Positions 12,820 to 26,454 of a stretch of 64,000 nt of DNA are shown here, one piece after another. The stretch is taken from assembly GCA_023838465.1 (NCBI GenBank), contig JAIVEQ010000021.1, positions 1 through 64,000 of the forward strand, in the 5' to 3' direction. This DNA is from Candidatus Thiodiazotropha sp. GTDB lineage: Bacteria > Pseudomonadota > Gammaproteobacteria > Chromatiales > Chromatiaceae. Position 1 is the first letter of the stretch, and the number at the start of each line of letters is the position of its first letter. The notes below the pieces were generated by a model that worked only from the letters and a program-made list of their open reading frames with translations, ran no database searches and was not told the origin of the DNA. The translations under genes and the position numbers were made by a program.

Positions 12820-13293
12820 CTACTGCTGGCTAACAATGCGCAAAACCTGGAGTTCGATCTCATCCAGGTCCGGAATAATGACAGGACTCATGTCCAGCAC
12901 GATACTTTGTTTGATTAACGCAGGTTGACCATCTTCAGGATCAACTGGCGCAACATTGTCAGCACTCACTCTCACCAGACTTGGAATTGCCTGTACCACA
13001 AGCCCAATATGGGAGAGACGTTCATGTCCACCGAGGGCATTCATCACCATAATCCTTCCCCGGTACCCAGGTGTCACCACTTGATCGCCAATCATACCCT
13101 CGAAGGAGACCACGGGAACCATCACACCTCGCCATGCAAGATTACCAAGAAACCAGGCAGGTGCATCATCGCCAACGAGTTCCGGTTGTTGGTAGCCCAT
13201 TACCTCTGCTATCACTGCATTGGGCAGCAGTAGTTGATGCTGATGTAAAGGTATGAGGACACTTCTGACCTCTTTGACAACAGCTTGGTTCAT
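12820..13293 (-). CDS. CheW-like coupling protein (ChpC-like)
   Basis: A 157-residue stand-alone CheW domain: LLLPNAVIAEVMGYQQPEL, APAWFLGNLAWRGVMVPVVSFE and IGLVVQAIPSLVRV fit the SH3-like adaptor fold that links receptors to CheA-type kinases. Its start overlaps the stop of the ChpA-like kinase by 4 bases, so the two are probably translationally coupled. By position it corresponds to ChpC of the Pseudomonas Pil-Chp cluster; no chpB (CheB methylesterase) lies between them. Confidence 0.85.
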   Translation of the reverse strand: MNQAVVKEVRSVLIPLHQHQLLLPNAVIAEVMGYQQPELVGDDAPAWFLGNLAWRGVMVPVVSFEGMIGDQVVTPGYRGRIMVMNALGGHERLSHIGLVVQAIPSLVRVSADNVAPVDPEDGQPALIKQSIVLDMSPVIIPDLDEIELQVLRIVSQQ

Positions 13294-16200
13294 AGTCGAT
13301 TTTCCGCCAGGACTTCATTGATGTTGTCCAAAAGCTCAATCTCCTGATAGGGCTTACCGAGACAACGCTTGACTCCTAGATCCATTGCACGTTTACGGTG
13401 TTTGTCTCCAACCCGTGAGGAGATCATGATGATCGGTAGTCCATAATAGTCAACAGAGTTGTTGATATGCCGGGCTAACTCAAAGCCATCCATGCGTGGC
13501 ATTTCAATATCCAGCAACATGATATCGGGTACTTGCTCTTGCAACAATGTAACGGCTTCAACCCCATCCTTCGCTGTTACCACATCCATATCGTGGCGTT
13601 CCAAGAGGCGACTTGTGACTTTACGTACAGTAATGGAATCGTCTACCACCATCACCCGTAAACGCTCCTCGATACGTTTTTGCGACCCATCTCCGATCAC
13701 ACTGAGTGGGGCAGTTGCATGAGTTGCATCCATACGTACCAGTGCCGCAAGATCGAGTATCAAAGCGACACGTCCATCCGCCAAGATGGTACCACCTGTT
13801 ATCCAGCGTACACTCCCCACCTGTTTGCCGAGGGATTTGACAACAACTTGCCTGCTGCCAAGCAGTTCATCGACCTGTAGTGCCGCTTGATGCTCACCAG
13901 TCTGTAATAATAGCAGGGGCAACCAGCGTGTGGCTTCATGAATCTCATGTTGCCCTGTGCCCATCATACGGCCTAAATAACTAACCTTGTATCGCTTGCC
14001 ACCATATTCAAAGCCATCCTGTTGCTCGTTATAACAGGCCAGGAGTTCCTGACGTCGGACTCTAACAACAGCAGCAACTGTGCCATGAGGAATAGCGTAT
14101 ATCTCTTCACCGACACGCACTAACAACGCATCGGAAATCGCCAGTGTAAGCGGTAGGCGGATAATAAAGCTGGTACCACGTCCTGGCTGGGAATCGATTT
14201 CCAGGGACCCACCCAGTTGCTTGACTTCGCTGGTTACAACATCCAGACCGACGCCACGACCAGAGATTTGGGTAACTTCCTTGGCAGTACTGAAGCCAGG
14301 CAGTAGTACACACTGAATCAGATCATCATCACTGATCTCGGCATTAGCATTGATCATTCCCTGGTCTAAAGCACGTTTACGGATCGCTTCTGTATCGAGT
14401 CCCTTACCATCGTCGGAGAGAGTAATAAGAACATCTGTCGCTTCCCGATCGAGATAGAGTGAGATCCGCCCTGTTTCCTGCTTACCCTCAGATACACGAT
14501 CTTGTGGATATTCAATACCGTGGGAGACTGAGTTTCGCAGTAGATGCTCAAGTACAGGCACCATCCGATTGAGGATACTGCGATCGAGTTCTCCTTCAAC
14601 ACCAAAACACTCAAGATTAGCTTTCTTTTTTAACTGGCCAGCAGTCTGTCTAACCAGTCTTTGCATCCTTGGCACCAACTGCGCGAAGGGCACCATTCGG
14701 GTTCGCAGCAGACCATCCTGAAGGTCGGTGGAGATACGAGACTGCTGTAACAACAACGTATCGGTCTCACGTTGTAGATCCCTTAGTGCCTCGTTAATAT
14801 TACCCAAGTCATTGACTGTCTCCACCAAGGCTCGTGACAGTTGTTGCATGGTGGAAAACCGATCCAGTTCAAGGGGATCAAATTCAGCCTTCTCTCGATC
14901 ATCCTGTTCGTGTTCTCTTTCCCAACGATAGATTATCTGCGCCTCAGTTTCGATTTCCAGATTTCTCAGCTGGGTGAAGAGACGGGATACGGTCTGTTCC
15001 AACTCTGACAGGTTGAATCCGAGCACACTATTCTGTTGTTCAAGTCGCGCGCGATAAATACTCACTTCACCAGCGTGATTAACCAGGCGGTCCATCAGCT
15101 CTGCATTAACTCGCACTTGATCCTTGCTAGGCTTGAAGCTCTCCTTCTCCTCTTTCTTTTCCGGATTGAGAAGTTTTGCTATCTCATCATTGAAGGGAAG
15201 CACTTTAGCCGAAGACGGTACATAGATTGGTTCTACAGCTATGACTTCCTGCTCTTCCTCTGTCTGGATAGCTTCCACCAGTCCGGTATGCGGTGGGGTA
15301 GGCTCACCTCCAAGCAGGTTATGTAGTTGGCCTACCTGGGTATCGGATGCAGGCACCTTGCCAGATCTGGCAATGGTGTCTATCTGAAGGGCCAAATGGT
15401 CAATAGCCTGCCTCATCATATCGGTGACTGTATCGATTGGATCAATCTCTTTTTCTGCTACCGAGGTCATCACTGATTCGATAGCATGACTGAGATCACC
15501 CACCGGCATAATACCGGCAAGACGTGCACTGCCCTTCAGGGTATGTAAATTGCGTTGAATGCCCTCAATGGAACCATGATCATCAACATCCTCAAGCCAC
15601 TGCAGGAAACTATTTTCAATTTGTTCGATAAACTCCTTGGCCTCTTCGATGAAGATCTGTACCAGTTCTTCATCCTCACCCACATCCAGCAAGACTTCAT
15701 CATGAAGCAGCATGAATGATTCATCAGCACCTGTTATGCCCTCCACGTCAACATCATCAAGATTAAAACTGTCGAGTGGAATCACAGGTTCCTGATCACC
15801 ATCAGGCTCTTCATGTATCGCTTCGGACACCTCATCCAATGCCATTTCAGAAGACTCAAGCGCCTCCTCCAGCTCTGGATCTATCACATCTTCAACAACC
15901 TGATCTTGAGAGGAAGTCTGCTCGATAATCGACTTAATCTCGTCAATCAGCGCATCAGCACGATGCACCAAACCGGTGGTGGCTGCATCCTCTGTTTGTG
16001 TCGCAAGAAGATCGAGGGTCTGTCGACAGATATTACGTGTCGATCCGGTGACTTCAACCTGTCCCCTGATCACACTGTTCAGCAACGATTCCATCATATG
16101 ACTTAGATCACCCACCGGCTCGATACCGGCAAGACGTGAACTGCCCTTGATAGTATGCAACCCACGTAGCATCCCTTCCAGGGCGTGATGATCTGCAGGG

Positions 16201-19200
16201 TCTTCAGACCACCGGCTATAGTTCTCATCCAAAGATTCCAGCAGTTCCCGTGACTCCTCAACAAAGATTTCAACCAGTTCACGATCTTCACTGACTTCGA
16301 AGAGGTCTCCATCATGCAGAAAGCTCATCGGCTCTTCGTAGCTGGAATCTGAATCGACAGAACCAACCACTTCGGGTTCGGCAAAATCATCATCAGCCTG
16401 CTGAAAATCCTGATCAAGCACTTCTCCCACTCTCTCTTCAGACTCAACAGGAGAGGCATCCCCATCCATCTGATCGAGCGGGTTTTCCAATGCATTCAAT
16501 AATTGGGTGGACTGATGAACACTTCCGCTGGTGGCTGCATCCTCGACTTGAGTTGACAGAAGACCCATCGCATGATGTGTCAGGTTATGGATTGATGGTT
16601 CCGGCTTAATATCTTCACGCGATAGGCGATCGAAAAGATTCTCCAGGCCATGACTCAAATCACCAATCGGGTTGATACCCGCTAACCTTGAACTCCCCTT
16701 GAGGGTATGTAGCGTACGCTTGATCTCATCAATGACAGCATTGTCATGAGGCGATTGTATCCATTTGTGGTGGTCCTGCTCGAGGGTATCCAGCAACTCC
16801 CGTCCCTCTTCAACGAAGATTTCAACCAACTCCTCGTCGCCCTCAACCTCAAACAGCTCTTCATCATGAGGATAACTGAGCGAGCTTAGTAATTCCGGTA
16901 GTTCAGGCTGTTCGAGTGACTCTATCTGTTCGGCACCCTCTTTTTCTTTCGCAAGCTGGGTTAATTCTCCCAGCTGTAGAAGTTCTTCCGTGATACCTGC
17001 ATCAGTTTCAATTGCTGACTCCGCTGTAACGAATAGCTCTTCTATCTCGTCAACAGGCTCGTCGATTTCAGATTCAGACTCTTCGGTAAACTGTTCAGTG
17101 CTGTCAGTCAGCTGTAAATCCTCATGAGGCACTCCCAGATCCTCATTTTGAAGCTGACCAAGCGCACTCCTCAAGCCTAAGAGATAGGTATCTATAGGGG
17201 GTTCAGGGAGTGCCTCTTCAGGTAGCCAACCAAGTAGCTTTCGAATATAGCCTACGCTACCACCCAACAGATCCAATACTGACTCATCAACGCTCTGATG
17301 TTGCTCATGCAGCTGTCTGGCATAATCTTCCATGGCCTCGCTAAGCATGGCAATCGGCGTAATACCGGCCATATGTGCACTACCATGCAAAGTATGGCAA
17401 GCACGTACGACCTCTTCAGGAACCAGCATTGCCTGATCTGCGGCCTCGGCCAGATTGAGAAACTGTTCAATCTCCTGCAGATGCTCTTCTGACTCTTCAG
17501 CAAAAACCTCCAGAAGCTCTGAATCAGCCTCTATCTCTAAATCTGAATCGGTGAAGTCTTCCAGTAACGCCTCTTCGTTCTCTTCATCGAGTACCGCCTC
17601 ATCACTCGATACCTTACTCTCTGGCATTTCCGAATCGATGGATAGGTCGGAATCTGTACTGGAAAATTCAGAATAATCTGTATCTACCTCCAGTTGTGAC
17701 AGCTGCTCAGTCAGCTCTTCGACACTTGGCTCCGCATCAATGTCAGTAACTGACATCGACACACCATCCGATTCAGTAGCAGAGAACTCCGAATGATCCG
17801 TATCAACCTCAAGTTGTGATTCATTAACAGCTGGTTGTTCAATAACCTGCTCAGATTCAATCTCGGCTACCGGCATCGGCTTACCGTCTGCCAATGCATA
17901 GGCTTGTCGTTGGATAAACTCGATATCGATATCCGGGTATACACCACGCTCCTGACAATCGATTAACTCAGGCAATGATTCAACCACTCTGTTCAGCACA
18001 CTCATCATCTCGGGGCTGACCTTAATGGTTTCGTCAATCATTCGGTTAAGCATATTCTCAACCGACCAGGCCAACTCGCCAATCACCTTGGCACCGACCA
18101 GTCTGCCACTCCCCTTCAGGGTGTGGAATGAACGACGAAAGGTTATTAGTGCATCATTGTCGCCCTGGTTGTGCTGCCATTTAGGCAGGTATTGCTGGAT
18201 GGTCTCCAGCTCTTCACGGGCCTCTTCGATGAATATTTCAAGGATCTCGGGGTCGATATCCTCCAACATGGGTTTGTCAGCGGAGGCAATTTCAGGTTCA
18301 TGTTCTTGAATTGTTTTTTGATCGGCGGGATGCAGCTGTGCAACATTTTCTGAAATGATATCGACTTCAGGTTGTGGCTGTTCAATCTGCAGACTACTGG
18401 CACCCATTTCCAGATCCGAGATATCTTCCTCTTCCAGTTCAAAGCCTTCGATATGATCAGCTGATTCCTCGAGTTCGATTTGCTCTGACGGCTCAGTATA
18501 CTGAGTGACCTCAACCCCACCCTGGCTCAATAGATCATTCATGGACGCCTGGGCAATGGCCAGAATTTCACGGCGGTCTCCGGCACCATCCACAAGGGTT
18601 TCCAGGTAATACTCGATACTGCTGACCACATCTGCAAGGGAGTTCAGTTGCTGACGTTGAGGTTGCTGTCCTGAGTCAATAAGGTAGGATTGGATAAACG
18701 CGCCTGTCTGAGACATCAATCCTGCTGCATCACGCAGATTGAGCATACTCAAAGCACCTTCAACCCGCTTGAACCCCTGATGCACACTGCTCAAAACAGA
18801 AGCATCATCTGTCGCCTCAGTAAAACTGATAATGGCCTCTTTGGCCCTGGCAATCTCTACCTTTGCCTCCCGAACAGTCTGTTTGATCAGATTCTGATAT
18901 TCGCCCTCTGGAAGGTTTAGTCCAAAACCGTCCTGATCCATACCCTCATCTGATCCGGGCTGGAAGGTGTGAAGTGTACTGAGTGACGATTCGACATAGA
19001 GAATATCTCCCGCCATCTCCATCAACTCGAACTCTTCTGGCATTACGCCCTGTTCGACGAAGTTATTAACCTTTTCGGCCTGGCGATTGAGCCTTGAGCG
19101 TAAGGCGCCCTGACCAATCATCCCCAATGTATCAGCCAGTTTTCTAATCGGTGCTTCCAGGTGTCCCAACATATCCATGTCGGCCTGTTCATCGCGCATA

Positions 19201-20192
19201 AAAAGATCAAGGATATCCTTTATGCGGGTTAACTCGCTGCTAACTGCATCTTTGATCGACTCCGCCAATTCAGCATTGGAGCCTGTTAAACCCAGCCTGC
19301 CCTCATGTAACTGAGCCTCGCTCGGCATGACTGAATCCAAGTTATAGGCCTCTTTGATCTCCTTGATCAAAGGATCATCTGATTGTGCCCGAGCAATGTA
19401 ATAGAGTAGATTTTTAAGCAATCCGGCAGGGGGCTGATCCACCAGAGCCTGTTCGCCACTATCGATAATTGTCTTCATCTTTCGATCAAGGCGACTGAAC
19501 AGCTGTTTAACAGCTATGCCCGGAGCAATAGCTCCCTCGATCAATCCATGCATGAGGCCTTCAGCCACCCAAAATAGATGGTGTGCCGATTCCGTACCCG
19601 AATGCTGATGGAGGGTTGCAAATACATCTCTCAGCAATGGCCAGCCATGCACAGTATCACGCTTGCGATACCAACTGAGGAGTCCTAAATGGAATTTCTG
19701 CCTGACCTGTCTGGCCAACACCGGCAGCTCATCATTGACTGCGCCATCAGCTCGAGCTGTATCTATCTCCGGTTTAAACAGGGCAGCTTCCGACAGTAGC
19801 GGTGCATCACGCACTGCACGCAAATCATTCAGCAGAGGAAGAATAATCAGTGGGATGTCAGCATCTCCACCCTGTAACTTTTCCAGATAGTCCGGTAGCT
19901 GAATGAGAGCCAGCATCAGAGCCTCGGCCGCATCATCCTCCTGCCTGATCGATCCGTCGGCCATGTCACGAACCACCAACTCCATCTCTTCGGCAAGCAT
20001 ACTGGGTCCATACACCTGGACCATCTGCAAGACCCGAGCAATCTGGTGCAGGTGATCGCCGCATGCGGCAATTGAATTGCCCTCTTCGGGGGACTCAACA
20101 TGAGCTTCAAGGGCCTGTCGAGCGTGACGAATTGAGACATCCAACTCATCCTTTACCCAATTCAGAGCACCAAAATCTTGCGCATTACTCAT
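13290..20192 (-). CDS. chpA: Pil-Chp hybrid histidine kinase ChpA/PilL with five Hpt domains
   Basis: Cytoplasmic 2300-residue CheA-type kinase of the type IV pilus chemosensory system. The N-terminal about 600 residues are FimL-like, with degenerate helical bundles lacking the phospho-histidine. Five Hpt domains follow, with histidines near residues 689 (FHTLKGSGRL), 932 (CHTLHGSAHM), 1161 (LHTLKGSSRL), 1345 (LHTIKGSSRL) and 1548 (LHTLKGSARL); the last three are close tandem copies with long acidic linkers. Then come the dimerisation helices (about 1690), the HATPase (LEHLLRNSVSHGIE, LSDDGKGLD, GRGVGLDVV), a CheW domain (about 1970-2110) and a C-terminal receiver (VMVVDDSITVRK, LLDIEMPRMDGFE, GKPY). 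It follows pilJ after 84 bases. Confidence 0.95.
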   Translation of the reverse strand: MSNAQDFGALNWVKDELDVSIRHARQALEAHVESPEEGNSIAACGDHLHQIARVLQMVQVYGPSMLAEEMELVVRDMADGSIRQEDDAAEALMLALIQLPDYLEKLQGGDADIPLIILPLLNDLRAVRDAPLLSEAALFKPEIDTARADGAVNDELPVLARQVRQKFHLGLLSWYRKRDTVHGWPLLRDVFATLHQHSGTESAHHLFWVAEGLMHGLIEGAIAPGIAVKQLFSRLDRKMKTIIDSGEQALVDQPPAGLLKNLLYYIARAQSDDPLIKEIKEAYNLDSVMPSEAQLHEGRLGLTGSNAELAESIKDAVSSELTRIKDILDLFMRDEQADMDMLGHLEAPIRKLADTLGMIGQGALRSRLNRQAEKVNNFVEQGVMPEEFELMEMAGDILYVESSLSTLHTFQPGSDEGMDQDGFGLNLPEGEYQNLIKQTVREAKVEIARAKEAIISFTEATDDASVLSSVHQGFKRVEGALSMLNLRDAAGLMSQTGAFIQSYLIDSGQQPQRQQLNSLADVVSSIEYYLETLVDGAGDRREILAIAQASMNDLLSQGGVEVTQYTEPSEQIELEESADHIEGFELEEEDISDLEMGASSLQIEQPQPEVDIISENVAQLHPADQKTIQEHEPEIASADKPMLEDIDPEILEIFIEEAREELETIQQYLPKWQHNQGDNDALITFRRSFHTLKGSGRLVGAKVIGELAWSVENMLNRMIDETIKVSPEMMSVLNRVVESLPELIDCQERGVYPDIDIEFIQRQAYALADGKPMPVAEIESEQVIEQPAVNESQLEVDTDHSEFSATESDGVSMSVTDIDAEPSVEELTEQLSQLEVDTDYSEFSSTDSDLSIDSEMPESKVSSDEAVLDEENEEALLEDFTDSDLEIEADSELLEVFAEESEEHLQEIEQFLNLAEAADQAMLVPEEVVRACHTLHGSAHMAGITPIAMLSEAMEDYARQLHEQHQSVDESVLDLLGGSVGYIRKLLGWLPEEALPEPPIDTYLLGLRSALGQLQNEDLGVPHEDLQLTDSTEQFTEESESEIDEPVDEIEELFVTAESAIETDAGITEELLQLGELTQLAKEKEGAEQIESLEQPELPELLSSLSYPHDEELFEVEGDEELVEIFVEEGRELLDTLEQDHHKWIQSPHDNAVIDEIKRTLHTLKGSSRLAGINPIGDLSHGLENLFDRLSREDIKPEPSIHNLTHHAMGLLSTQVEDAATSGSVHQSTQLLNALENPLDQMDGDASPVESEERVGEVLDQDFQQADDDFAEPEVVGSVDSDSSYEEPMSFLHDGDLFEVSEDRELVEIFVEESRELLESLDENYSRWSEDPADHHALEGMLRGLHTIKGSSRLAGIEPVGDLSHMMESLLNSVIRGQVEVTGSTRNICRQTLDLLATQTEDAATTGLVHRADALIDEIKSIIEQTSSQDQVVEDVIDPELEEALESSEMALDEVSEAIHEEPDGDQEPVIPLDSFNLDDVDVEGITGADESFMLLHDEVLLDVGEDEELVQIFIEEAKEFIEQIENSFLQWLEDVDDHGSIEGIQRNLHTLKGSARLAGIMPVGDLSHAIESVMTSVAEKEIDPIDTVTDMMRQAIDHLALQIDTIARSGKVPASDTQVGQLHNLLGGEPTPPHTGLVEAIQTEEEQEVIAVEPIYVPSSAKVLPFNDEIAKLLNPEKKEEKESFKPSKDQVRVNAELMDRLVNHAGEVSIYRARLEQQNSVLGFNLSELEQTVSRLFTQLRNLEIETEAQIIYRWEREHEQDDREKAEFDPLELDRFSTMQQLSRALVETVNDLGNINEALRDLQRETDTLLLQQSRISTDLQDGLLRTRMVPFAQLVPRMQRLVRQTAGQLKKKANLECFGVEGELDRSILNRMVPVLEHLLRNSVSHGIEYPQDRVSEGKQETGRISLYLDREATDVLITLSDDGKGLDTEAIRKRALDQGMINANAEISDDDLIQCVLLPGFSTAKEVTQISGRGVGLDVVTSEVKQLGGSLEIDSQPGRGTSFIIRLPLTLAISDALLVRVGEEIYAIPHGTVAAVVRVRRQELLACYNEQQDGFEYGGKRYKVSYLGRMMGTGQHEIHEATRWLPLLLLQTGEHQAALQVDELLGSRQVVVKSLGKQVGSVRWITGGTILADGRVALILDLAALVRMDATHATAPLSVIGDGSQKRIEERLRVMVVDDSITVRKVTSRLLERHDMDVVTAKDGVEAVTLLQEQVPDIMLLDIEMPRMDGFELARHINNSVDYYGLPIIMISSRVGDKHRKRAMDLGVKRCLGKPYQEIELLDNINEVLAENRL

Positions 20193-23430: not shown

Positions 23431-23835
23431 TTATGCCGCTCGATTGACATAGCGTTTGATCGCTCCGAGCAGTTCATCCTTCGTAAAAGGCTTGGTCAGA
23501 TACTGTTCTGAGCCAACAATACGCCCACGAGCCCTATCAAACAGGCCATCCTTACTCGAGAGCATAATCACAGGAATACTTTTAAAGACATCGTTGTGTT
23601 TAATCAGAGCACAGGTCTGATATCCATCGAGACGCGGCATCATGATGTCAACGAAAATCACATCAGGATGGTGATCGGCTATCATCGCCAGTGCCTCGAA
23701 GCCGTCGGTTGCTGTGGTTACGTCACACCCTGCCTTTTTCAATAGGCTTTCAGCCGTACGTCTAATGGTTTTACTGTCATCGATGACCATGACCTTAACA
23801 CCTGAGATGTCCATTTCAGTATCATCACCACTCAC
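23431..23835 (-). CDS. pilG: Response regulator PilG
   Basis: Single-domain receiver of 134 residues and the first gene of the Pil-Chp operon. Acidic pocket VIDDSKTIRR, phospho-aspartate in VIFVDIMMPRLDGYQTCALIK, threonine/serine switch in VIMLSSKDGLFDRARG and lysine in YLTKPFTKDELL. Translation starts at GTG with GAGG about 9 bases upstream. In Pseudomonas PilG promotes pilus extension and cAMP synthesis. The 204 bases upstream to the rhodanese gene carry no other gene and should hold the operon promoter. Confidence 0.95.
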   Translation of the reverse strand: MSGDDTEMDISGVKVMVIDDSKTIRRTAESLLKKAGCDVTTATDGFEALAMIADHHPDVIFVDIMMPRLDGYQTCALIKHNDVFKSIPVIMLSSKDGLFDRARGRIVGSEQYLTKPFTKDELLGAIKRYVNRAA

Positions 23836-24039: not shown

Positions 24040-24762
24040 TTATTCTCCAGGCACGACTGTCGTCAATCCCCAAAGCTGCCACAATTGCATACCACCACGA
24101 TAGTAGAAAATCTTGTTGGCGGGGTAACCCACTTTCAATAATCCTTTAATTGCCCTGGGTGACTGACCGCATTCAGGGCCATTACACCAGAGAATGATTT
24201 CTTTGGCATTGCTGAAGTCCCACTTTTCCGTTTTATCATCGCTATCCATCAAACCCATCTCTTCTAGCTTGAGCGAGAGCGCACCGACTTCACCCCTGGG
24301 TTTACCCCCGAATATTGCCAATGCAGCATCATTTTCTGCAGTACCATCCTTGCTGAGAGTCGTGAAGGGTATATTGATCGAACCAGGGATAGTACCACGT
24401 TCATACCACTCGGAAGTCCGAGCATCAATCAGTAGTCCCTTGTTGTCACGTAACTTTGTCTCCATGAATTCAAAGACTTCGACCTCACCAATAGTGGCGA
24501 CACTGGAAACAACCTGCATGGGTTGCAAACAGAACGGTGGGCATTTGCGGGCAGTCTTTGCATAGTATCCTTTGAGTTCATAGTCAGGGTCTTGAACCCG
24601 TTGGACCTTGACTGATCGCCCTTCATGTATGACATGGATATAGGGCTTTTCACCCGATAGCCCAACCGCTATTTTACTATCGACCGCTTGCTCATCTGCG
24701 ATCGCCTGAATAGATAACATCGTAAAAAAAACAGTTACAATCTGGCAATAAAGCCGTTTCAT
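24040..24762 (-). CDS. Periplasmic rhodanese-domain protein
   Basis: 240 residues with a signal peptide (1-22, ending IQAIADE), so exported to the periplasm. The rhodanese domain covers about residues 90-238: GLLIDARTSEWYERGTIPGSINIPF is the first conserved part, and the active loop is CNGPECGQSPRA, with C193 as probable sulfur-carrying cysteine and a second cysteine C198 in the loop. A separate pair C74/C78 (KCPPFC) lies in the N-terminal extension and could form a disulfide or relay sulfur. Function is probably thiosulfate/persulfide transfer, but the substrate is unknown. It is followed closely upstream by a second small secreted protein gene, inserted between pilG and gshB. Confidence 0.85.
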   Translation of the reverse strand: MKRLYCQIVTVFFTMLSIQAIADEQAVDSKIAVGLSGEKPYIHVIHEGRSVKVQRVQDPDYELKGYYAKTARKCPPFCLQPMQVVSSVATIGEVEVFEFMETKLRDNKGLLIDARTSEWYERGTIPGSINIPFTTLSKDGTAENDAALAIFGGKPRGEVGALSLKLEEMGLMDSDDKTEKWDFSNAKEIILWCNGPECGQSPRAIKGLLKVGYPANKIFYYRGGMQLWQLWGLTTVVPGE

Positions 24763-24843
24763 GCTTACACCCTTCTTTTATTTCAGCCTGTTCAACACTT
24801 AGAAAATGCCGATCACAATCCTTAACTGCTCTGCAATGACCTA

Positions 24844-25227
24844 CTAATTGAGAAAACGGTCCATAATCTTCTTACGGATTTCATCAATCGATGCTCCGCC
24901 CTTGTACTCTTCAAAAATCTCTTCACGTGCTCGCCTGGGCAGTCTCTTATAGAAAGTAAATGTCCCCATATAGCGCGCTTTCAAATCACCCTCAAAAGCG
25001 TGCATACTTGGACCATCTGCAGTCGACTCAATCGCACTCCCCTCATCACCATCCAATACAGGTGCAGTTGTCTCAACTTTTGCAGCCTCAGAAGAAATAG
25101 CTGATAGATAAGGGTCCTCATCAGCAACAACGAGCTGCACTGCAAAGCACATGACCAAAAGTACTGAAATCTGGTGTTTCAACCGGATGCCAGACATACG
25201 GATGAAACAGATAGTCTGTGTCGCCAT
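24844..25227 (-). CDS. Small secreted protein of unknown function, partner of the rhodanese gene
   Basis: About 127 residues. I do not recognise the family. A hydrophobic segment (QISVLLVMCFAVQLVVA) looks like a signal peptide with cleavage before DEDPYLS. A polar linker follows, then a charged helical C-terminus (RRAREEIFEEYKGGASIDEIRKKIMDRFLN). No cysteine remains after the signal peptide. Possible starts are ATG at 25227 (GAGG 9 bases upstream), 25251 or 25197; I chose 25227 on the ribosome site. It ends 81 bases before the rhodanese gene on the same strand, so the two are likely co-transcribed. The 276 bases upstream to gshB hold no other gene. Confidence 0.7.
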   Translation of the reverse strand: MATQTICFIRMSGIRLKHQISVLLVMCFAVQLVVADEDPYLSAISSEAAKVETTAPVLDGDEGSAIESTADGPSMHAFEGDLKARYMGTFTFYKRLPRRAREEIFEEYKGGASIDEIRKKIMDRFLN

Positions 25228-25503
25228 GGCGGCGCACCTCATTATTATCATAAAGTTAATGCCGACACATAAACCTTAACAAAAACAAAGATGTGCCTGC
25301 AGAGTTCCTACTCCTCCTGGTCAGCTCCATTAACCCTGTATATCACTTCCAAAATAGCAAGACAGTCAGCCCGCATCAAGAATATACTTCCCAATTCATA
25401 ATCTTAAGGTTGAATTAAGTGAATCCTTTCGACATGTAAGTCATCATAGCGGCAACCAATTGAAAAACTTAACTCTGTTTTTTTTCCTAAGTAAGATGAT
25501 CAT

Positions 25504-26454
25504 ATGACTATTCAACTCGGTGTAGTGATGGATCCGATCGGCTCCATCAAGATCCACAAAGACAGCACCTTTGCCATGCTATTGGCTGCTCAAGCCAGGG
25601 GTTGGCAGATTCACTATATGGAACAGCAAGACCTCTCATTACAGGATGGGGAGTGTTGGGCTGAAACCAGGGTGTTACAGGTATCGGACGACAAATCGCA
25701 CTGGTTCGAGTTTGGCGGAAAACATACATTACCCTTGCATCAACTGGATGTTGTATTGATGCGAAAAGATCCTCCGTTTGACATGGAGTATATCTACACC
25801 ACTTATCTATTGGAGCAGGCGGAATCGAAAGGCTGCACTGTGGTCAATCGACCTAGCAGTCTTCGTGATGCCAACGAAAAACTGTTCACAAGCCTGTTCC
25901 CCCAGTGCACACCACCTACACTGGTCAGCCGTCGCGCCGGTGAAATTCGAAGATTTCATCAAAATCACGGCGATATCATTCTCAAACCCTTAGGTGGCAT
26001 GGGGGGTGAATCGGTTTTTCGCATACCTGAAAATGACCCCAATCTTGGTGTAATCATTGAGACATTGACTCAACATGGCAGTCAATTCACCATGGCACAG
26101 CGCTTTATTCCGGAGATTTCACTGGGTGACAAGCGTATACTGATGATTGATGGAGAACCTGTACCTTATGCCCTAGCCAGGATCCCGGCAAAGGGTGAAA
26201 CCCGGGGCAATCTAGCAGCAGGCGGTCGCGGGGAGGGTATTCCACTCTCTGCACACGATACATGGATCGCACATCAGGTTGGCCCGGAACTCAAAGCGCG
26301 CGGCATTCTGTTTGCCGGACTCGATGTCATAGGCGATTATCTCACAGAGATAAATGTGACCAGTCCCACATGCATTCGCGAACTGGATAGCCAATTTGAG
26401 CTGGATATTGCCGGTGATCTTATGGATGTGATTACTATTAAGTTATGCAGATGA
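25504..26454 (+). CDS. gshB: Glutathione synthetase
   Basis: ATP-grasp enzyme, 316 residues, that joins gamma-glutamylcysteine and glycine to form glutathione. The N-terminus GVVMDPIGSIKIHKDSTFAML, VLMRKDPPFDMEYIYTTYLLE, NRPSSLRDANEKL, ILKPLGGMGGESVFR, GETRGNLAAGGRGEG and TEINVTSPTCIRELD are the standard signatures. It begins the gshB-tonB-yqgE-ruvX-pyr operon; its stop overlaps the next start (ATGA). No strong Shine-Dalgarno sequence precedes the ATG. Confidence 0.97.
   Translation: MTIQLGVVMDPIGSIKIHKDSTFAMLLAAQARGWQIHYMEQQDLSLQDGECWAETRVLQVSDDKSHWFEFGGKHTLPLHQLDVVLMRKDPPFDMEYIYTTYLLEQAESKGCTVVNRPSSLRDANEKLFTSLFPQCTPPTLVSRRAGEIRRFHQNHGDIILKPLGGMGGESVFRIPENDPNLGVIIETLTQHGSQFTMAQRFIPEISLGDKRILMIDGEPVPYALARIPAKGETRGNLAAGGRGEGIPLSAHDTWIAHQVGPELKARGILFAGLDVIGDYLTEINVTSPTCIRELDSQFELDIAGDLMDVITIKLCR

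Follow-up and report, generated by a model that had tools for sequence, protein, structure and literature searches.

Candidatus Thiodiazotropha sp., a sulfur-oxidising clam symbiont, carries next to the pilus-control gene pilG a two-gene pair that encodes a rhodanese and a small protein of an unnamed family. Judged from its sequence, the rhodanese is a paralog of SoxL. Since a SoxL is already present in the genome, a second enzyme of this kind needs a reason, and the locus therefore raises the question of what the pair does and what the small protein contributes to it.

In the window, i.e. the whole stretch of 64,000 nucleotides that was analysed, both genes lie on the minus strand between pilG (23431-23835, minus strand) and gshB (25504-26454, plus strand), as the preliminary description of this DNA had reported. 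The rhodanese gene (24040..24762) encodes 240 amino acids, and the gene of the small helical protein (24844..25227, 127 amino acids) is located directly upstream. The intergenic gap is 81 nt (24763..24843), the spacing in other loci being mostly similar or shorter, and the two genes are probably co-transcribed. Promoter and terminator scans gave 5 sites (2.9 expected) and 3 sites (1.4 expected), respectively, and were not used as evidence. The mechanical open reading frame (ORF) of the small gene spans 24844-25251, but the start at 25227 (MATQ...) chosen in the preliminary description fits better, because a GAGGTG stretch is found just upstream of the ATG and a MAT start occurs in the ORFs of several orthologs. 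Both proteins are probably exported, and the rhodanese is probably periplasmic. Inspection of the translations points to a signal peptide in residues 1-22 of the rhodanese (MKR..., 24697..24762, minus strand), with cleavage between AIA and DEQ, and to one of 35 residues from MATQ in the small protein (25123..25227, minus strand; ...RLKHQISVLLVMCFAVQLVVA followed by DEDPYL), with cleavage between VVA and DED. Farther off in the window, the Pil-Chp cluster includes a chemosensory ORF of 2300 amino acids (13290-20192, minus strand) with repeated HTLKGS-type segments that by eye resemble Hpt domains.

The rhodanese matches PF00581 with 50 bits (cut-off 22.2) over residues 103-229, and its predicted structure (mean pLDDT 86) exhibits a rhodanese fold, with a VIA Z of 14.9 to 3nhv_B over 112 residues (rmsd 2.5). 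The active-site stretch, CNGPECGQSPRA, contains C193 and C198. In the model strand 188-192 ends at C193, and the loop that follows (CNGPEC, 24169..24186, minus strand), ahead of helix 200-211, contains C198. A further pair, C74 and C78, belongs to a CPPFC motif (24529..24543, minus strand) that was modelled with low confidence. Across 19 family members (alignment A2), 35 columns are invariant, including CPPxC, D113, R115, GTIPG and CNGxxC, and both cysteine motifs are kept in SoxL-operon, solo and paired members. The preliminary description had singled out C74/C78 as an extra pair, but it is shared by the SoxL-operon copy and by a third paralog type; since both cysteine pairs occur in all three paralog types, they are a trait of the family and not peculiar to the window rhodanese.

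Two further close relatives of the rhodanese are encoded in the same genome, here called the C97 and C64 copies. The C97 copy follows soxX (TIGR04485) and soxA (TIGR04484), both over cut-off, and a gene for a SAXB/SoxK-like SoxAX-binding protein (NF052674, 86.1 bits, under the cut-off of 95), and for this reason it was taken for SoxL. It is 39.6% identical to the window rhodanese (BLASTP), and both carry CPPxC and CNGxxC. Through this sox-operon copy, rather than through the Allochromatium vinosum sequence, the window rhodanese was also judged to be of the same family as A. vinosum SoxL (Alvin_2171). Unlike SoxL, the window rhodanese is encoded outside the sox operon, with pilG and gshB as neighbours and the gene of a helical partner upstream; it also has a longer segment near residues 154-180 and is placed elsewhere in the tree. 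The C64 copy (L061:4424-5101) is a stand-alone SoxL-like paralog with the same cysteine motifs and a rhodanese domain, 46-52% identical, and adjoins a DUF3754 protein, with no recognisable sox gene beside it. It differs from the window rhodanese in that no small-family gene lies beside it in L061, L064 or L067 and in that its IPG-Cys spacing is shorter, at 47.

The abstract of PMC2593051 describes PspE, the periplasmic rhodanese of E. coli, as an exported single-domain rhodanese. The window rhodanese is probably of this build too, but scored only 12.2 bits with the PspE model (cut-off 102). With TIGR03865, the model of the PQQ-associated CXXCW protein, it scored 18.9 bits against a cut-off of 128.05. 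A plasmid collection yielded ten records with distant rhodaneses, and no sox gene was among the listed nearby features in the two records opened (Hoeflea, Salipiger); the small protein had no match in this collection.

The small protein contains EEYKGGASIDEIRKK. Its mature form comprises a short conserved helix (YLSAISSEAxKV in the family, alignment A1; DEDPYLSAISSEAAKV here, 25075..25122, minus strand, model helix 37-51), a variable linker, and a C-terminal helical domain (24850..25005, minus strand) that is modelled as four helices within residues 73-124. The block of this domain has pLDDT values of 91-95, and F76, G86, F90, L94 and I119 are invariant (A1, row-1 numbering). As 102 of 105 distinct paired small proteins have no cysteine within their last 60 residues, the small protein is unlikely to carry sulfur itself. 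NCBIfam yielded nothing for it at E<=5 and Pfam nothing over cut-off, nor did a profile search of PDB sequences give a match at E<=1. Fold searches gave a best Foldseek E of 1.6, without a useful match, and a best VIA Z of 4.1 (rmsd 3.9, 53 residues), i.e. in the range of common helical arrangements. DUF7067 (PF23229) was considered, and 6 of 20 small-family members matched it at E<=0.01 (best E 0.0004), but the small protein itself scored 19.6 bits against a cut-off of 27 and the likeness was judged to be due to chance. Among the open-access PMC papers listed in literature searches, none mentions the pair in its title or in the displayed opening of its abstract. SoxK/SAXB offers an analogy only: it is likewise a small partner of a Sox enzyme, with its gene directly upstream of soxL (in L062), but the small protein had no match to NF052674, a model in the library searched.

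A second subfamily of the small protein is encoded beside a LolA-like/DUF1329 protein (L063:5039-5464, i.e. G000:C4 of the same genome, as well as L030, L066, L229, L234, L237 and L238). The small domain is therefore not solely a rhodanese partner, and it may serve other exported proteins too.

To what extent the two genes belong together was assessed in 210 genomes of the order. Here the rhodanese family was found in at least 161 genomes (E<=1e-20), and the small family at 123 places in 87 genomes. Among the 85 strongest rhodanese matches, 79 were paired, each with a small gene immediately upstream in the same orientation. Of the six unpaired ones, four are at contig ends (G206, G211, the C93 copy of G119, and G136); in G136 the small gene ends one contig, the rhodanese lies close to the beginning of a second one, and the two contig ends share 42 identical bases. 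Only G017 and G028 represent a real absence of an intact small gene beside the rhodanese. Conversely, when all 123 small-gene places were compared with 90 rhodanese matches (the 85 strongest, four more, and one from a separate search), 80 adjoined one of them, all 80 on the same strand and with the small gene upstream, the matched stretches being 40-416 nt apart. Of the remaining 43 places, ten had their surroundings inspected: two are at contig ends (G136, G211), six adjoin a LolA-like gene (G000, G008, G015, G135, G203, G230), and two (G203, G049) show neither.

The loci of the best 80 of 522 relatives, below referred to as named loci, gave the same picture, with 74 of the 80 paired. In L187 the last 49 residues of the small gene are at the contig start; L129, L167 and L176 start too near a contig end and correspond in their rhodanese matches to G136, G206 and G211; and L174 and L181 (Ca. 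Thiobius zoothamnicola, G028) lack the small gene. The two ORFs overlap by 4 nt in 13 of 105 distinct pairs. Holders of the pair include the named strains Sedimenticola selenatireducens, S. hydrogenitrophicus and Milos-ODIII6, and also many animal symbionts. Two loci contain an additional small-family gene: L232:1766-3378 (G340) has the order small-rhodanese-small, and in L166:449-2912 a second copy is found one gene further on.

In a class-wide sample of 369 genomes the small family occupies 46 places in 38 genomes, and 40 of the 46 places adjoin a rhodanese, with the small gene upstream in 39 and downstream in one, the second copy of G340. Thus, the small gene does not mostly occur without the rhodanese, an outcome that would have spoken against the proposal of a two-gene unit. 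The other six places are G000:C4 and G072:C32, which adjoin a LolA-like gene, G507 at a contig end, G277 and G407, which have no rhodanese, and G009:C25. G277 and G407 (L204/L207) are of one genus, and their small gene has neither a rhodanese nor a LolA-like gene adjacent; by eye its neighbours look like proC, yggT and yggS. Apart from G507, they are the only such genomes at class level among those opened. Taken together, the linkage strongly supports the conclusion that the two genes form one functional unit, as the preliminary description had supposed. The conserved two-gene unit is real: its enzyme represents a subfamily within an already known type, and its partner is uncharacterised.

The paired rhodaneses have a mark of their own, a segment (residues 154-180, 24223..24303, minus strand) that is 10-18 residues longer than in most relatives and that we propose as docking site for the small protein. 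The spacing from IPG to the catalytic cysteine is 61-70 in paired rhodaneses with both landmarks found and 47-56 in most solo ones (no value was taken from the solo members L252, which has a landmark error, and L258). Solo rhodaneses L076, L245 and L246 also have a spacing of 65, the sequence of L076 there being unlike the paired type, and the solo members L174, L075 and L079, with spacings of 65-70, fall inside the paired clade. A rhodanese tree was calculated from 110 sequences with the insert columns removed, leaving out 32 near-duplicate loci, identical sequences, the fragments L080, L206 and L226, and the duplicate L181. One side of the tree holds all 76 paired sequences together with four from contig ends and three solo ones, and the other side 27 solo sequences, though the branch separating the sides has a weak support of 68. 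The SoxL-operon copies are found in a group of 18 (support 99), apart from the window rhodanese, which is among the paired ones. The distances of the small protein and the rhodanese correlate beyond those of gshB and pilG (partial correlation 0.48, 43 loci), compared with 0.20-0.30 for three other protein pairs. Because these controls also correlate, if more weakly (at most 13 of 1000 permutations were as high), the value lends modest support only.

The distribution of the pair was then compared with that of sulfur oxidation genes. In the class-wide sample SoxB was counted as absent if no match passed E 1e-100, and DsrA if none passed 1e-60. SoxB (E<=1e-100) is present in 150 of the 369 genomes and in 35 of the 38 that hold the small gene; of the three exceptions, G277 and G407 have neither the rhodanese nor DsrA, and G416 is a MAG of 87% completeness that contains a fragment of DsrA. 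SoxB was found in 34 of the 35 class genomes where the pair was seen, against 116 of the 334 others (Fisher p 1e-13, kinship ignored), and so the pair is far from absent among sulfur oxidisers. SoxC and DsrA were compared between the 38 holders and every third (39) of the 115 SoxB-positive non-holders. Among SoxB-positive genomes, SoxC is over cut-off in one of 35 holders of the small gene (G371) and in 9 of the 39 non-holders sampled (p 0.015). For DsrA the counts are 34 of the 35 holders and 24 of the 39 non-holders (p 1.6e-4), although all these Fisher values overstate the certainty since the genomes are not independent. In the order, SoxB is over cut-off in 164 and DsrA in 180 of the 210 genomes, and being so common they discriminate less there; SoxB (E<1e-100) is nevertheless found in 79 of 83 pair-clade genomes versus 89 of 127 others, and none of the 83 lacks both SoxB and DsrA. 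Together, SoxL homology and co-occurrence with soxB partly support the suggestion that the pair takes part in sulfur transfer in the periplasm and in the oxidation of thiosulfate.

In passages of PMC3368242 and PMC5573963, SoxL of A. vinosum is proposed to deliver to sulfur globules the sulfane sulfur that SoxY carries, and A. vinosum is described in part of PMC10892978 as devoid of SoxCD. We suggest a comparable task for the pair, at a rough probability of 0.5: a periplasmic sulfurtransferase of the SoxL family that, with a dedicated helical partner, relays sulfane sulfur in bacteria whose Sox pathway is truncated, with SoxB but no SoxCD. The sulfane sulfur that remains bound to a thiol carrier such as SoxYZ would be accepted by C193 as a persulfide, with C198 and the CPPFC pair assisting, and from there it would move on towards the sulfur store or a low-molecular thiol supplying the cytoplasmic rDsr pathway. 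The small protein would dock on the rhodanese, probably via the clade-specific insert around residues 154-180, and would set the enzyme's partner or location. The pair would thereby constitute a second, non-operon SoxL-type enzyme with a partner of its own, in the same niche as SoxL, though the presence of SoxL in the genome itself speaks against a need for it. A more specific version, which we put forward tentatively and hold to be rather less probable than the relay as such, is that the small protein founds a new family of periplasmic sulfurtransferase partners, binds to the insert of the second SoxL, and directs sulfane sulfur coming from SoxYZ either to the sulfur store or to a thiol carrier. 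The mechanism is, in short, a well-founded guess.

The same cysteines could instead serve a thiol-disulfide maintenance unit that repairs the thiols of SoxY or of other periplasmic proteins or keeps them in the reduced state, with the small protein as a scaffold. Two invariant cysteine pairs suit dithiol chemistry, and co-occurrence with soxB would follow equally. We regard this as unlikely, since the fold is that of a rhodanese with a cysteine at the catalytic place, and since by eye no electron-donor gene accompanies it at the 21 loci that lie apart from pil and gsh genes.

A similarly low probability is given to the idea that the small protein does no more than aid folding or stability, having been recruited by different partners, and plays no part in sulfur chemistry. 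This would agree with the second subfamily beside the LolA-like protein and with the lack of a conserved cysteine, but not with the longer segment that the paired rhodanese subfamily carries, nor with the genomes in which both genes were damaged or lost together. Of four genomes without the small gene, two have a damaged rhodanese (G017, G036) and two an intact one (Ca. Thiobius, L174). In G017, C198 is changed (CNGPEYGQSS), and a stretch resembles by eye the start of the small gene, for which tblastn gave no confirmation. In G036 (L272:2440-3942) several frame changes disrupt the rhodanese beside pilG, and 17 residues of the small gene are left as a remnant (82% identity). Ca. Thiobius (G028/L181) and the MAG L174 have kept all four rhodanese cysteines without the small gene; the tree branch of Ca. 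Thiobius is long (0.71) and that of L174 ordinary (0.22).

The site of the pair suggests yet another function. Among the named loci the pilG-gshB interval is the commonest site of the pair in this lineage, and the pair might, from its seat beside gshB, handle glutathione persulfide or detoxify sulfide; part of PMC4213376 indeed proposes a glutathione-type carrier for A. vinosum, and gshB adjoins the pair here and in many loci of the lineage. But in 21 of the 74 paired named loci neither pil nor gsh genes occur in the vicinity; these loci adjoin genes that by eye resemble rpsI/rpiA, rluD/clpB, hemL, uppP, purB, metG or SCO1, and no third gene is shared throughout. Moreover, pilG and gshB are mostly neighbours even where the pair is missing. 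When 20 genomes of the order chosen for lacking an intact pair were examined, gshB was present in 19, and in 13 of these 19 a PilG (>55% identity) was adjacent, in all cases divergent; L277 is a fourteenth such locus, just below 55% identity. This fits the view, expressed in the preliminary description, that the two genes are usually adjacent and divergent, and the pair thus sits where its flanking genes adjoin anyway. Given its occurrence at many unrelated sites, the pilG-gshB location is incidental. Because the pair moves, and since it goes with soxB, mostly without SoxCD, a GshB-linked function was set aside as even less probable than the two preceding explanations. That the two genes are chance neighbours beside the Pil-Chp chemosensory genes, for which one could cite only that this interval is their commonest site, is contradicted by their staying together at many other sites across many families, and is for practical purposes excluded by a linkage that recurs in 105 distinct pairs.

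The same pair is found repeatedly among sulfur-oxidising Gammaproteobacteria, and for this reason its unnamed protein is probably a component so far lacking in the picture of their extracytoplasmic sulfur handling. How sulfane sulfur leaves SoxYZ without SoxCD, and by which route it reaches a periplasmic store and then the cytoplasmic Dsr proteins, is only sketched in the passages of the literature cited here, and the pair, if the more specific version above is true, would supply a missing step of the combined truncated Sox and rDsr pathway in Gammaproteobacteria. Such a role, if established, would also assign a function to a protein family that is nameless in the libraries searched.
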